Shown here one piece after another: positions 27,375 to 34,296 of a stretch of DNA of 64,000 bases. The position numbers and the translations under genes are program-made. Under the pieces are notes generated by a model. The model worked only from the letters and a program-made list of their open reading frames with translations. It did not search any database and had not been told where the DNA came from. The stretch's first letter is position 1. Each line of letters opens with the position of its first letter. Source of the DNA: Ignavibacteriota bacterium (GTDB taxonomy: Bacteria; Bacteroidota; Ignavibacteria; Tepidaquicellales; Tepidaquicellaceae); the NCBI GenBank assembly GCA_016218085.1, contig JACREY010000008.1, positions 1 to 64,000 of the forward strand, in the 5' to 3' direction.

Positions 27375-28267
27375 TGAAACGAATAATACTTTTTATAGGA
27401 TTTATACTATTTATATCATTATCTTCCTGCGAAAAAGAAGAAGTATTCAATTCCGAAAATTCAATCAGGGATGATGCAGGTAATATATTCCCGCTCGATT
27501 TTAATCCGAAAAGAATAATTTCCCTTGCTCCGAACATAACCGAAACAATATATTCATTAAATGCAGATTCACTATTATTTGGCGTTACAGATTACTGTGA
27601 TTTTCCTCCGGAAGCAAAAAACAAGGATAAGGTAGGCTCCTTGCTTGACCCGAATATTGAAAAAATCACATCACTGAAGCCTGATTTGATTTTTATGACA
27701 ACTGAAGGAAATTCAAAATATACTTACCTGTCGCTGAAAAATAATGGTTTTAAAGTATTTGTAGCGAATCCGGGAGATATTGACGGAATTAAAAGAATGA
27801 TAACCGGGATTGGAATTCTAACCGGAAAAAAGCAGACAGCTAAAAAACTGGCAGAGAGAATAGAAGATGAAAGGAAATATTTCAAGCTTGAAAACACCGG
27901 CATCAAACCGAAAAAATGCCTTTTAATAGTATCAATGAACCCGCTTATAACGGTAAATAGATTCACATATATAAGTGAAGTTATGGAATTGTCCGGTTTG
28001 GAAAATATATACAACAGCGAGCTTCTTGAATATCCGAATATCAGCTACGAAGATGTGCTATTGAAAAATCCCGAATGCATAGTTTATATGTGCGATACAA
28101 CAAATAAAACTTTGGTAATGGAAACGGCTGATGCCATTAAATCAAGGCTGGGAGTAACAGATGCGGTAAAAAACAACAGAATATTTCCCGTTGATGAAAA
28201 TATTATTTCACGCCCCGGTACGAGAGTTATGGAATGCGTTAAATTGCTTAGATTAAAAGTTTTTTAG
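27374..28267 (+). CDS. BtuF-like periplasmic binding lipoprotein
   Basis: 297 residues. The lipobox LSSC gives a lipidated Cys. The body is a helical-backbone (class III) binding protein: PKRIISLAPNITETIYSLNA, VGSLLDPNIEKITSLKPDLIF and SRPGTRVMECVKLLRLK. This family binds cobalamin, haem or siderophores for ABC import. BtuF fits the B12-dependent genes in the window, but no permease or ATPase is adjacent. Its last 15 bases overlap the convergent coiled-coil gene. Confidence 0.8.
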   Translation: MKRIILFIGFILFISLSSCEKEEVFNSENSIRDDAGNIFPLDFNPKRIISLAPNITETIYSLNADSLLFGVTDYCDFPPEAKNKDKVGSLLDPNIEKITSLKPDLIFMTTEGNSKYTYLSLKNNGFKVFVANPGDIDGIKRMITGIGILTGKKQTAKKLAERIEDERKYFKLENTGIKPKKCLLIVSMNPLITVNRFTYISEVMELSGLENIYNSELLEYPNISYEDVLLKNPECIVYMCDTTNKTLVMETADAIKSRLGVTDAVKNNRIFPVDENIISRPGTRVMECVKLLRLKVF

Positions 28268-28936
28268 AATTGTTCCGGCTATTTCTTTAATTCTTTTTTC
28301 CGTCGAGTTAAGTTTTTCAAGAAGTTCTTTCAGGCGGTCCTGTTTTTTCCTTTCCCTGGTTTCCTCTTCGCTTTCAGGGCGTATCGAAAATTCTTCGTTA
28401 TTCCGTGCGGTTGGAATATTATCAGCCTGAACCGGTGAATAGTAATTTATGGCAGTTTTATTCTTTTCCCTGTATGCCGAAAAAATATCTCCGAGCTTGT
28501 TATCCATTTCCTTTATTTTATCTTCAATCATCGCTTTGTTCTGAATATCCGGTTTTATAGAAAAAATCGGTTTTTGAGATTTTTCCAGGTCGTCAAGCAG
28601 TTTATAGTTCTCCTCAATTTTCCTTGAAATTAAATCATTTGTGGAAATGTCAGGCGAATTCAGGTGGTTTTTAAAGCTGTTTTCAAGTACTGTTAAATTT
28701 CTGTTTAATGATTCGAGGTTTTTTGCTTCTGAATTTCTCTTTATATCCTCTGTTTTTTTAATATCTTTCTTTTTCAATTCTTCTTTAAATTTTTCTTCCA
28801 TTAAATCTATTTTCTTCGAAATGACTGATATAGCGTTCATACAAATTCTTTTCTCAAGTCCTTTGCACTGCGATTCAAGTTCGTTCAGATACTCAATGCT
28901 CCTTTTATTCCTTATAAATTGATTTTGCAACCTCAT
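28253..28936 (-). CDS. coiled-coil protein related to the insert in the split glycosyltransferase
   Basis: 227 residues, mostly charged helices with no signal peptide or membrane span. Two stretches, KIKEMDNKLGDIFSAYREK and KELLEKLNSTEKRIKEIAG, resemble repeats in the 32455-34296 product (KLMDVQNQIKNIYEANKEH and RDLLERLISIDERIKQLSS). A sigma-54 promoter lies at 28980-28995. It is divergent from the glycan export operon and may be its cytoplasmic partner, perhaps by coiled-coil contact. No known family. Confidence 0.7.
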   Translation of the reverse strand: MRLQNQFIRNKRSIEYLNELESQCKGLEKRICMNAISVISKKIDLMEEKFKEELKKKDIKKTEDIKRNSEAKNLESLNRNLTVLENSFKNHLNSPDISTNDLISRKIEENYKLLDDLEKSQKPIFSIKPDIQNKAMIEDKIKEMDNKLGDIFSAYREKNKTAINYYSPVQADNIPTARNNEEFSIRPESEEETRERKKQDRLKELLEKLNSTEKRIKEIAGTILKNF

Positions 28937-29380: not shown

Positions 29381-31027
29381 ATGATTAAGGGTAAAAAATA
29401 TCAATCAGATATAGGGTCTTTGTTTTATTCGGCTATTGCAGTAGCTATCATATCAATTTTATTAACTTCCGGTAATGCATTTTCTCAGGTATCGGATAAT
29501 AAACTTGATTTAGCATACAATTACCTGAATAACGGCCAGACAGATCTCGCAATTAGTCTTTTCGAGGAGTATGCAGGTTCAAATCCTTCCGAAACAAAAA
29601 TATTTCTTCAGCTTGGTTATGCATATAAACTACAGAAGAATTTAATCAAGGCAAAGGAAAATTTTACTTACGTATATAATCATTCTGTAAATACGGAGGA
29701 AATAAATTCCGCGAAATCGGAACTTGATTATATGAATAAGGGTAATGATTTAAGTCTTTTAAACAGGGCATATGAGACACTCAACCTCGGAAATACGGGC
29801 GAAGCGATAAATATGTTTGAAGACTATATATCAAGAAATCCCAGGTCAACATCGGTTTATCTTCAGCTTGCATATTTATACAAGCAGCAGGAAAATACTG
29901 ACAAGGCAATAACTTATTTCCAGTATGTTGTAGACAATGCTGTAGATGCTGAAAGCATATCAAAAGCACAGTCAGAAATTGAGAATATTTACAGGCAGAA
30001 GTATGCTGTTAAAACAACCGAGAAAACTTATACAGGAACGAGCAGTTCTGATGATTTGAACGAAGCTTATAATGCACTTAACAGCGGAAATACAAAAAAA
30101 GCCATAGATATTTTTGAATCATACTTAAAGACACATACTGATGACACGAAAATATATATGCAGCTTGCATATATTTATGACAAGGAAAAAAATTACAGCA
30201 AGGCTATTCAGTATTTTGATTACGTAGCAGCTGTTTCAAACAACAGGGATGAAATTGATAATGCAAAGCAGTCGGCAATGATTTTAAGGCAGATGAATGC
30301 ATACAGGTCATTCAGGTCATTGGAAATTTATTTCTACAATGCTTATGATTCTTATTACCAGAATTATATTTCAAATTTCCTCGGTCATTTGAGTTTTAAA
30401 ATGAGCAAATATGTTGATTACGGATTTTACGGTGACATCTATATGGATGCAAGATCAAAAAAGACAAATATACTAAACGACAGGTATCTCGAAGCCGGCG
30501 GATTTATGAGGTTTAAGTTTTCAAATCATATCGGCCTTGAAATGAGACTCGGTTATTTCAGAGAGCTTGATCTGGATAAAAACGGCGTGAACTTCAAACC
30601 CATTCTTTATATGGGAACGAGGTTCGGAGATGCTCCTGTATATCTGAGCAGGAAAACAACAAAAACAGAGAATTTCTATTTCGATATTTATTCGACAGAA
30701 TTATACGATTCAAAATATAAAAACCTTTTTGCACAGATTCAGCTGAAAGAAGTATTAAGATATATGACCGGCGGATATTCCTATCTTGAGTTCTATCTTA
30801 TGCAGATGGCTCAGGCGGACAGCAGGCAGCTATCTTACAATAATTACGGCGAAGCTAGCATTGGGCTTTCTTTTAAACCAAATCTTGCAAATTTCCCCGC
30901 AATATTTATCGAAGGTACAAATAGAATAAATTTTGTGGATGATAACGGAAATTACTTCCAGGGTGAAATGAAAAGTATTTTTCAAGTCAAAGCAGGTTTT
31001 ATAATTAATTTTAACTTGGCATTATGA
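29381..31027 (+). CDS. NfrA/BcsC-like TPR and outer-membrane barrel protein
   Basis: 548 residues. After a signal anchor (about 15-35) come three ~100-residue units with TPRs (NNGQTDLAISLFEEY, NLGNTGEAINMFEDY, NSGNTKKAIDIFESY). From about residue 310 the chain is beta-rich with aromatic girdles (SLEIYFYNAYDSYYQNYISN), matching the C-terminal barrel of NfrA-type proteins. It ends in a strand (IINFNLAL). By analogy it forms the periplasmic scaffold and outer-membrane exit for a glycan made by the inner-membrane synthase encoded next. Its stop overlaps the ATG of the glycosyltransferase half by four bases. Confidence 0.78.
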   Translation: MIKGKKYQSDIGSLFYSAIAVAIISILLTSGNAFSQVSDNKLDLAYNYLNNGQTDLAISLFEEYAGSNPSETKIFLQLGYAYKLQKNLIKAKENFTYVYNHSVNTEEINSAKSELDYMNKGNDLSLLNRAYETLNLGNTGEAINMFEDYISRNPRSTSVYLQLAYLYKQQENTDKAITYFQYVVDNAVDAESISKAQSEIENIYRQKYAVKTTEKTYTGTSSSDDLNEAYNALNSGNTKKAIDIFESYLKTHTDDTKIYMQLAYIYDKEKNYSKAIQYFDYVAAVSNNRDEIDNAKQSAMILRQMNAYRSFRSLEIYFYNAYDSYYQNYISNFLGHLSFKMSKYVDYGFYGDIYMDARSKKTNILNDRYLEAGGFMRFKFSNHIGLEMRLGYFRELDLDKNGVNFKPILYMGTRFGDAPVYLSRKTTKTENFYFDIYSTELYDSKYKNLFAQIQLKEVLRYMTGGYSYLEFYLMQMAQADSRQLSYNNYGEASIGLSFKPNLANFPAIFIEGTNRINFVDDNGNYFQGEMKSIFQVKAGFIINFNLAL

Positions 31028-32412
31028 TATACGACATTTTTCAAATATTATTATGGGTTACCGCTATTATGCTTGTAATTAGCGGACTCGATGATATGTA
31101 TATGGATTTACTGTACTGGATTTACAGGAAGAAATACAAGGATAAGATGCCCGATTTCAACGAAATGTTTGACAAGGATGAGAAACCTATTGCTATCATC
31201 TTGGGTGCATGGAAAGAATCTTCCGTAATCGGCAGGACACTTAGTTATGCGGTGAGAAATCTGAAATACAATAACTACAGATTCTTTGTAGGTGTATATC
31301 CGAATGATCCCGATACAATCAGGATTGTAAAAGAGATATCCAAAAAGGACTCAAGGGTTATTGCCTGTATAAATCCGCAGAACGGACCGACAACGAAAGC
31401 TGACAATCTGAACAGTCTTTATGCGGGATTATGCGAATATGAGAAAGTTTATGGTGAATTCGAAATAGTGCTGGTTCACGACGCAGAAGATTTTATGCAT
31501 CCATACGCTTTGAAGTTGTATAATTTCCTTATAGGTTATAAAGGCTATCACGGTGTGCAGATTCCCGTTATACCGATAAAAAGCAAACTTGGTGGAATTT
31601 TCCACAGAACTTATTGCGATGCTTTTGCGGAAGTCCACACAAAGGATATGATTGTCCGCGAAGCAATGGATACTTTCATTCCGTTCTCAGGTACGGGTAT
31701 GGGATTCCACAGGAAAGCAATTTATTATCTTGAGAAGAATAACGGATTACAGGAAGGCAAGGAAGTGCATATTGATGCTGAACTTACAAATACTTACTTC
31801 CAAAATAATGAAGAAGCCGTAAAAGACGATATTCTTGTAAATGATACAAGCTATAAAGACGATCCGTTTGAAAGCCTGAATGCAAAATCTTATATTCCAC
31901 CTCGCGAAACTCCGAACCAGATAAGAAATTATACTACGGTATTTTTATCATTTGTTCTGATGTTTGTCTCATTCCTGGTTTATACCGGAGCTACTGAAAG
32001 CTCCGAGCAGGAAGTAATAGCAGATAACAAGGATGGAAATGTAATTGAAAACATAGTGAACAAGGTCAGTTATACGGACGCTTTTGCAAATACAATGGCA
32101 AATGAAAACCTGAACTTGCCTGAAAATGTAATCAGAATATCAAACAGCTTCAGGGACAATCAGTACAATGTAAATTATATTGTAAAAGACGGAATGTATA
32201 ATATCGAAGAATCTAACTGGAATAATGATGAAGCGGCAAGGAACAGACTCAGTGAAGTTCAGAGCATATTAGGTTATGAAAAAACCAAAGGTCTTATTAT
32301 TAAAAGCACGGGCGAAGATGGAAATATTTATAAAGTAATAATTGGTGAATACGGTTCAATTGATGAAGCAAGAGAACAGGTTTCAAAAATAAAAGAAATT
32401 ACAGAGAAATAA
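31024..32412 (+). CDS. N-terminal half of a split NfrB-like family 2 glycosyltransferase, with SPOR-like tail
   Basis: 462 residues. A membrane helix (4-25) is followed by GLDDMYMDLLYWIYRKK and a GT-A half: IAIILGAWKESSVIG, VGVYPNDPDT, GPTTKADNLN and the metal-binding HDAEDF (152-157), all as in NfrB. Similarity stops near residue 245 (FHRKAIYYLEKNNG). The family's catalytic TED and QxxRW motifs are missing here; they occur in the next gene. The rest is unrelated: linker, membrane helix (~304-320) and a SPOR-like domain (~380-460, IYKVIIGEYGSIDEAREQV). The frame ends TAA TAA. Confidence 0.82.
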   Translation: MIYDIFQILLWVTAIMLVISGLDDMYMDLLYWIYRKKYKDKMPDFNEMFDKDEKPIAIILGAWKESSVIGRTLSYAVRNLKYNNYRFFVGVYPNDPDTIRIVKEISKKDSRVIACINPQNGPTTKADNLNSLYAGLCEYEKVYGEFEIVLVHDAEDFMHPYALKLYNFLIGYKGYHGVQIPVIPIKSKLGGIFHRTYCDAFAEVHTKDMIVREAMDTFIPFSGTGMGFHRKAIYYLEKNNGLQEGKEVHIDAELTNTYFQNNEEAVKDDILVNDTSYKDDPFESLNAKSYIPPRETPNQIRNYTTVFLSFVLMFVSFLVYTGATESSEQEVIADNKDGNVIENIVNKVSYTDAFANTMANENLNLPENVIRISNSFRDNQYNVNYIVKDGMYNIEESNWNNDEAARNRLSEVQSILGYEKTKGLIIKSTGEDGNIYKVIIGEYGSIDEAREQVSKIKEITEK

Positions 32413-32454
32413 TAAATTTTAAGGAAATTAGTTCCAAGGGTAAATCTAAAAAAA

Positions 32455-34296
32455 ATGGTTGCACATTTTCAAATTCAGAACTCTTCTATTATTTCAAAAA
32501 TTCTTGAGATAATAAGAAAACAAGCAAAAGAGGGCAATGGGAAGTTCCTCCGCATCATCGATGATTCCATCAGGTGGGGGGAACTTCGTAGCTCAATTGT
32601 TAATAAAATCCCAATTCTCAGCAACGGCAGTTTCGAGCATCACGATGTACTCCAGCTCTTTAAATGCCTTGTTATCGGTAACATCTACGATTTAACCGAC
32701 AACCAGATTCCCGAAGAAATTTCAGACAGAAAAAGTTATCAGAATTTCATCGAATTATTGTCAAGGCAGGAAATTCCTGACGCAAAAATAATTTCGGCTT
32801 TTAAAATGCTGCTTGAAAAATATGATTTGTTCGATGAGTTATTCGACAAATTCTATGAGCAGTTACTCGAATCAAAATTAAAAGTTATGGAAGGAGAAGA
32901 GAAAGGTTTTATGGAAAACTTTAACGAAAACCAGGAGAATAATTTAGTGGACTTCAACAAATACAAAACAGACGATAAAATAAAAATGGACGAAAAGATT
33001 AACGAAATCGAGGACAGAATCAAGAAACTATATGAAAGAAAACTTCCATCGGACCCGGAAAGTTCAGATATTGATTCAAATGCCGGAGAGGTGCTCAAGC
33101 ACAAGCTTATGGATGTTCAGAATCAGATAAAAAACATCTACGAAGCCAATAAAGAGCATCGTGAAAAAACAATAATAGATGGCGTTAGCGAAAAATCATC
33201 GAAAGAATCGAGAGATTTACTGGAAAGGCTTATCAGCATTGACGAAAGAATAAAGCAGTTAAGCAGCATTGCTTCAAAAATAGATGATAAAAATGAACAC
33301 GAAACCGGCGGAAAAAGCGGAGAACTCTATAAAAAGCTTTTCGATACTTTCTATAACCAAAGCCCAAAAACTTCTGAAATGAAGTCAGAGTTTACTTCCG
33401 ATTCACCGTCCGGCAAAGGGATTGTAAAGGATAAGCTTAGTACGATAGATTACGAGATTAACGAGCTTAAGGAAAGCCTGAATAAATTGTATCCCGCCGG
33501 CAGCAGGACAAAAGAAGAAAATAAAGAAACCGAAGTTTTAACCGCAGAGCAGGAAATAGCAGAAACTGAACCGGTGATAAATATTGAGTCTGAAAAGGCT
33601 CCTGAAGAAGAGAAAATAAAAATTGAAGCAAAGCAGATTACTCCCCACGGAGTGCTTGTACTGACACCTAAAGCAAAAAAAGAGGGAATATTCAATGATG
33701 CGAATCTTACAGAAGATTATGAGCTTGGATACAGATTTTATGAACTCGGTTTTAAAACCGGATTCTTTAATGTTAAATTGGATAAAAACGATGACGCAAC
33801 AAGAATAGCAACTGCGGAATTTTTCCCGAATACATTCTGGACTTCCGTTAAGCAAAGGTCAAGATGGATTGCCGGAATCTGCTTCCAGAACTGGAAATCA
33901 CATAAATGGAAAGGAAATCTTTCGACAAAATATTTCCTTTTCAGGGACAGAAAGTCAATATTCAGTTTCTTTGGAGCGTTTTTGTCAAACATTGTTATCC
34001 TGTATTTCGTTTATGCTATCATTGCTCATATTTTCCATTTTAAATATGTTTATTCACTCGTTGGACATTCATCGGTTCTATGGTATCTTATGATTGCAAA
34101 CTTTTTGTTTATGATATCAAGGGCTTCACACAGGTTTATATTCACTTATAACTGGTACGGATTTAAATACGCATTTTTCAGCTTCTTCAGGCTGATACTC
34201 GACACCTTTGTAAACTTTTTCGCAATAGCTCGTTCAGTGGATGTTTTCAGAAAGACCAAGAAAAAAGTTGTGTGGGATGCTACATCACACTATTAA
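32455..34296 (+). CDS. transposase-N (DUF772-like), coiled-coil and C-terminal half of the split NfrB-like glycosyltransferase
   Basis: 613 residues. Residues ~20-145 resemble the N-terminal DUF772 domain of IS5/IS1182-type transposases (NGSFEHHDVLQLFKCLV, IYDLTDNQIPEEISDRKSY, EIPDAKIISAFKMLLEK), but no DDE nuclease follows. Residues ~175-350 hold four related coiled-coil units (IEDRIKKLYE, VQNQIKNIYE, IDERIKQLSS, IDYEINELKE), then an acidic linker. From ~412 the chain is the missing NfrB half: NLTEDYELGYRF (catalytic TED), QRSRWIAGICFQNWKSHKW (QxxRW), FLFRDRKSIFS, three membrane helices and a final VVWDATSHY. The c-di-GMP-binding MshEN domain of E. coli NfrB is absent. Confidence 0.8.
   Translation: MVAHFQIQNSSIISKILEIIRKQAKEGNGKFLRIIDDSIRWGELRSSIVNKIPILSNGSFEHHDVLQLFKCLVIGNIYDLTDNQIPEEISDRKSYQNFIELLSRQEIPDAKIISAFKMLLEKYDLFDELFDKFYEQLLESKLKVMEGEEKGFMENFNENQENNLVDFNKYKTDDKIKMDEKINEIEDRIKKLYERKLPSDPESSDIDSNAGEVLKHKLMDVQNQIKNIYEANKEHREKTIIDGVSEKSSKESRDLLERLISIDERIKQLSSIASKIDDKNEHETGGKSGELYKKLFDTFYNQSPKTSEMKSEFTSDSPSGKGIVKDKLSTIDYEINELKESLNKLYPAGSRTKEENKETEVLTAEQEIAETEPVINIESEKAPEEEKIKIEAKQITPHGVLVLTPKAKKEGIFNDANLTEDYELGYRFYELGFKTGFFNVKLDKNDDATRIATAEFFPNTFWTSVKQRSRWIAGICFQNWKSHKWKGNLSTKYFLFRDRKSIFSFFGAFLSNIVILYFVYAIIAHIFHFKYVYSLVGHSSVLWYLMIANFLFMISRASHRFIFTYNWYGFKYAFFSFFRLILDTFVNFFAIARSVDVFRKTKKKVVWDATSHY

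Follow-up and report, generated by a model that had tools for sequence, protein, structure and literature searches.

Membrane-bound family 2 glycosyltransferases (GT2) of the NfrB/PRK14716 type, the closest described relatives of the locus analysed here, combine a DxD, a TED and a QxxRW motif with membrane helices on a single polypeptide, and NfrB of E. coli, which ends in an MshEN c-di-GMP domain, is activated by c-di-GMP and has the outer-membrane TPR protein NfrA as partner. Phage N4 infection via the glycan of E. coli NfrB depends on residues D169, D267 and W330 of the enzyme (PMC8669469). The locus described here lies in a window of 64,000 nucleotides (the whole stretch of DNA that was analysed) and resembles these systems in GT2 sequence, in the three motifs, in the membrane helices and in an adjoining TPR partner gene; it differs in that the active site is coded on two chains, by genes A and B, with the motifs matching D169, D267 and W330 on A, B and B, respectively, in having no MshEN domain, and in its added SPOR, coiled-coil and IS5 domains. 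Two separately encoded halves of one glycosyltransferase are known from Alg13/Alg14 and similar bacterial split enzymes; these are GT-B enzymes cut between two Rossmann domains, whereas here a GT-A fold is cut internally, between DxD and TED. Gene A shares with SPOR-domain proteins (PF05036) a C-terminal periplasmic SPOR fold and a single membrane helix, but attaches them to a glycosyltransferase half-domain. Gene B shares with IS5-family transposases (NF033581; PF05598) an N-terminal domain of ~120-140 residues, but is fused to the other glycosyltransferase half and has neither the DDE nuclease nor the mid-domain GRPP motif.

An earlier note on this DNA had proposed an NfrB-like glycosyltransferase coded in two same-frame genes, and the family matches indeed divide between A and B (Table 1). 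On gene A the matches to PRK14716 (2.9e-69) and NfrB (8e-57) are confined to residues 4-241 and both stop at residue 239-241; on gene B the matches to PRK15489 (2.9e-40) and NfrB (1.6e-37) restart at profile residue ~249-254, at B residue 406-413, and continue to the C-terminus of B. The break is thus as proposed, with its bounds slightly shifted, to ~240 instead of 245 on A and to ~411 instead of 412 on B. B extends to position 470 of the 723-position profile, and no MshEN domain was matched in Pfam. Inspection of the open reading frames in the window places A and B in one frame, with a spacer of TAA TAA and 13 sense codons. The TPR gene shares 4 nt with the start of gene A, and the same gene precedes A in those main split loci that cover this stretch, as well as the one-piece genes examined; the adjoining TPR outer-membrane partner typical of NfrAB-type export systems is present, its barrel being a prediction. 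An assembly artefact was considered and rejected, since the split recurs in many independent assemblies.

Table 1. Features of the two-gene synthase locus and its upstream neighbour (window positions; residues numbered within proteins A and B)
Feature	Position	Strand	Remarks or evidence
TPR and putative outer-membrane barrel protein, NfrA-like partner	29381..31027	+	TPR families, E 1e-15; barrel predicted from sequence
Gene A, whole	31024-32412	+	462 aa
Gene A, donor-binding half of GT2 domain (aa 1-240), N-terminal membrane helix, DxD	31024..31743	+	PRK14716, NfrB
HDAEDF, DxD-type metal/nucleotide motif (A152-157)	31477..31494	+	motif in sequence
Gene A tail: NDTSYKDDPF, membrane helix (aa 302-325), SPOR domain (periplasmic; fold at aa ~375-460)	31744..32412	+	
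Gene B, whole	32455-34296	+	613 aa
IS5-family transposase N-terminal domain (B aa 1-148)	32455..32898	+	PF05598, NF033581, tblastn, profile, model
Gene B linker: four coiled-coil-like units, conserved ELYKKLFDTFY (aa 290-300)	32899..33684	+	
Gene B, acceptor/catalytic half of GT2 domain (aa 411-613), TED, QRSRW, membrane helices	33685..34296	+	PRK15489, NfrB
TED catalytic motif	33709..33717	+	LTEDYE starts at B418
QRSRW (QxxRW) motif	33853..33867	+	starts at B467

All three motifs of the NfrB/PRK14716 synthases are present, and their assignment in the earlier note, HDAEDF to the first gene and TED, QRSRW and the membrane helices to the second, agrees with the positions found. HD[AS]EDF occurs in every A protein and one-piece relative aligned, all A proteins retain HDxEDF and GTGM, and TED and Q[RK]SRW are retained in every B protein long enough to reach them. 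Transmembrane-like segments lie at residues 1-26 of A and at 501-532 and 573-592 of B. The tail of A had been described as a membrane helix followed by a SPOR-like domain, which profile and modelled fold both bear out: the PF05036 match on A 403-457 (21.5 bits against a cut-off of 21) is marginal taken alone, the family is matched by 11/11 SPOR-type A proteins, and structure modelling gives the domain in the window a SPOR-like fold with high confidence (pLDDT about 90). The SPOR domain is absent from A of the short second pairs, which retain the helix; its role may be to link the synthase with peptidoglycan or else with the export partner. Directly before the added helix stands NDTSYKDDPF (window 31840-31869), which is kept in genera g1, g5, g6 and g8 and in the short pairs.

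The four coiled-coil units claimed for the second gene are all visible in the linker of B, as KINEIEDRIKKLY, KLMDVQNQIKNIY, RLISIDERIKQLS and KLSTIDYEINELK. This linker is fast-changing apart from ELYKKLFDTFYxQ (window 33322-33363), a candidate docking motif. The motif is recognisable in most split B proteins, short pairs included; its origin from an internal duplication of the last helix of the IS5 domain was rejected, as self-BLAST gave no match. A separate coiled-coil gene at 28253-28936 (- strand), with an orthologue only in a same-genus relative (L037) among the loci compared, has a C-terminus resembling the linker units, and kinship between the two was rejected at an E of only 0.05.

The N-terminal domain of B had been described as DUF772-like, without a DDE nuclease, and failure to match DUF772 would have spoken against the proposal; the match proves real. 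PF05598/DUF772 matches B 64-132 with 36.9 bits (cut-off 23.1) and is matched by 8/10 of the B N-terminal domains individually, NF033581 (IS5) matches with 2.4e-7, and tblastn against annotated IS5 transposases on plasmids gives 2e-6 at best, while no DDE nuclease was matched in B in Pfam or family-model searches. The IS5 ancestry of the domain is solid, because a profile built from ten of these domains recovers genuine IS5 transposases: it finds similar proteins across the phylum, the seven inspected having transposase length and layout, and its best match, a genuine IS5 transposase from the same class (243.5 bits, cut-off 140), aligns to B 6-142 with 30% identity (E 6e-18). In alignment, the captured domain ends right before the first catalytic Asp (DAT motif) of IS5 transposases, and the GRPP motif has been lost from every captured copy. 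A PF05598 family search of the organism's own genome gave no match despite the 36.9 bits of this open reading frame, which was attributed to the first look of that search. The domain is modelled as a compact helical fold (pLDDT 79, pTM 0.76); nothing meaningfully similar to this model turned up in a fold search of PDB and viral libraries, and the profile found no relative in PDB. Net charge was rejected as a discriminator of captured domains and transposases, the separation not being clean. Six genera have the domain, whereas g6, g8 and the short second pairs lack it; as the split persists in these, the domain is dispensable. Of the proposal that B's transposase domain serves as the assembly module of a working two-subunit synthase, the working pair is strongly supported by conservation and selection, whereas an obligatory role of the domain is not; the IS5 domain and linker may help A and B to assemble.

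The earlier note had suggested looking for the same split in related genomes, and 8 genera carry it. A search of the order with a one-piece relative as query, in which half-length and full-length matches were scored, found split pairs in 14 species of these 8 genera, all of the same family, as half-length matches of about 1-240 and 240-444, with the break at an identical residue throughout; the single polypeptide of the NfrB/PRK14716 synthases is here replaced by two genes, and none of the genomes with the split (14/14 species, order search) has a one-piece copy. A break confined to this strain, with one-piece genes in its relatives, is contradicted by this distribution. Each species of the sister family (15/15) has one full-length one-piece gene, and a class search of other Ignavibacteria beyond the order found one-piece genes only, in 12 further species. 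Named relatives from a second collection are all metagenome-assembled Ignavibacteria-type genomes, and G006 and G018 have their B half on a separate contig. Within the family, genus g16 includes two species (L096, L097) that have one-piece genes with a 59-residue loop exactly at the break site, against 20 residues in the sister family; the g16 one-piece branch is long in the tree, and these genes either preserve a longer ancestral loop or were re-fused. Several genomes contain a second, shorter split pair, and the one in the organism's own genome (L036, G000:C15:156323-158480) consists of an A of 387 aa, with the helix and no SPOR domain, and a B of 322 aa without IS5 domain; it adjoins carbamoyl-phosphate synthase-like genes and has no adjoining same-strand TPR gene.

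A tree of the joined halves divides split from one-piece forms by one branch (94/91; 65/63 with fewer tree rows), and the split would have arisen once in the family. For its origin we lean towards the reading that the catalytic centre of a natural GT-A enzyme came to lie on two polypeptides through an insertion sequence that cut the gene in two and gave B its start codon and N-terminal domain, further modules being gained later. An IS5-family element would first have inserted into the loop between the GTGM helix and TED; an in-frame deletion of its nuclease and right end would then have joined the transposase N-terminus to the downstream half, the transposase start becoming the start of subunit B. 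Judged by the anatomy of the locus, insertion is the most likely route, although no IS-like ends, terminal inverted repeats or target duplication were recognised around the region; a recent insertion with such marks still visible was rejected on that ground. The arrangement in G003, with a short-tailed A protein lacking the added helix and SPOR and then directly an IS5-linker-GT B, is the form that would be expected soon after such an insertion, and by its sequence layout would be reachable in two steps. After the split, A would have gained its SPOR domain and B its transposase domain and coiled coil as targeting or assembly modules, the IS5 domain later being retained in some genera, as a folded module in the cytoplasm, and lost from others. 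The main rival on this point, possible but rather doubtful, is that the IS5 domain joined a gene already split by another cause, such as tandem duplication with complementary half loss, as its absence in g6, g8 and the short paralogs and the missing IS ends might suggest; however, B opens with this domain, at its very N-terminus, in six genera that fall on either side of the deepest branchings of the split forms, and the domain is thus most simply ancestral to the split.

Most pairs are close to saturation at synonymous sites, which makes dN/dS values rough; the least saturated pair (G004-G018, dS about 0.9-1.2) gives 0.016 (A core), 0.13 (A tail), 0.044 (IS5 domain) and 0.26 (linker). Between the window and G001 the proportion of non-synonymous differences is 0.028 in the A core, 0.039 in the B core and 0.108 in the IS5 domain, the last with a dN/dS of about 0.07, and one-piece relatives have a dN/dS of about 0.05 in the first half. 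Both split halves are under strong purifying selection and are constrained about as tightly as the intact enzyme; relaxed selection on either half, which would have spoken against a working enzyme, is contradicted by values as strict as those of one-piece relatives. The alignment of split and one-piece forms has 74 invariant columns in half A and 55 in half B, and A-half and B-half distances among split forms correlate with an r of 0.93, against a maximum of 0.42 in 300 permutations, the shorter second pair included. As no other synthase copy is present in the genome, A and B either assemble or are both idle, and the selection on the halves argues against the latter. Own added domains on each half (SPOR on A, IS5 on B) and the second pair in several genomes could also be read as A and B now having separate functions, for instance as a sugar-nucleotide sensor and a membrane scaffold, which is unlikely given that the catalytic motifs of both halves are invariant and the halves as slow-evolving as one-piece enzymes, that they co-diverge, and that the pair stays adjoining, next to the TPR gene.

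Post-transcriptional rejoining of the two products into an ordinary one-chain enzyme, whether by reading through the stops, by frameshifting or by protein splicing, could be suspected from the identical frames and short spacer in the window, but is very unlikely: the A-B gap varies from 6 to 60 nt among split pairs with all three frames represented, which excludes conserved read-through, no intein domain was found in Pfam, an Rfam scan of the region matched no intron and no other RNA element, and the joined chain would carry ~650 extra residues within the GT-A fold. That the synthase is dead or decaying, broken by an old insertion with frames left open by chance, is hardly credible, for although a transposase-derived domain sits exactly at the break and G005 shows apparent frameshifts in both of its pairs (on short, fragmentary contigs), the split residue is identical in 8 genera with synonymous sites near saturation and both halves have a dN/dS of 0.01-0.05, in agreement with the earlier note's view that neither gene is decayed.

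A and B were also modelled as one chain read through the stops, with an alignment of one-piece and split relatives. The overall confidence is modest (pLDDT 57, pTM 0.36): most of the donor half and the SPOR domain score high, the B half is middling and the linkers are low. Residues 8..1079 of the model align with single-chain hyaluronan synthases (Z 15-16.5, ~360 residues) and with PcManGT (Z 17.6, 317 of 345); in the model, the A and B halves are complementary parts of one fold, although with the chains tied together and one-piece rows guiding the alignment it is uninformative on the association of separate chains.

In summary, the whole is very probably best explained by a two-subunit NfrB-like synthase with one split origin, for which IS5 insertion is the likeliest route, and A and B almost certainly make up a functioning enzyme of two parts rather than the remains of a broken gene, its assembly and activity being what we infer from the sequence comparisons. 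As subunits of one membrane-bound family 2 glycosyltransferase, A would contribute the half of the GT-A fold that takes the nucleotide sugar (DxD), together with a SPOR domain placed in the periplasm by an added membrane helix, and B the TED base, QxxRW and most of the membrane helices, so that the active site would be complete only upon assembly; the synthase would polymerise a sugar for export via the TPR/barrel protein coded just upstream. A partial survey of the literature, which is weak evidence, found neither a split GT2 synthase nor an IS5-glycosyltransferase fusion. A cut straight through the active site of an enzyme fold should as a rule destroy the enzyme; here such a split appears to have been retained across the family, and a transposase domain marks the cut, so that the route can be read. 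For structural work the pair may offer a membrane glycosyltransferase that is already split, and it may be a system for asking whether subunit assembly controls polymer synthesis, and it would be a clear bacterial example of a metabolic enzyme having captured a transposase domain.
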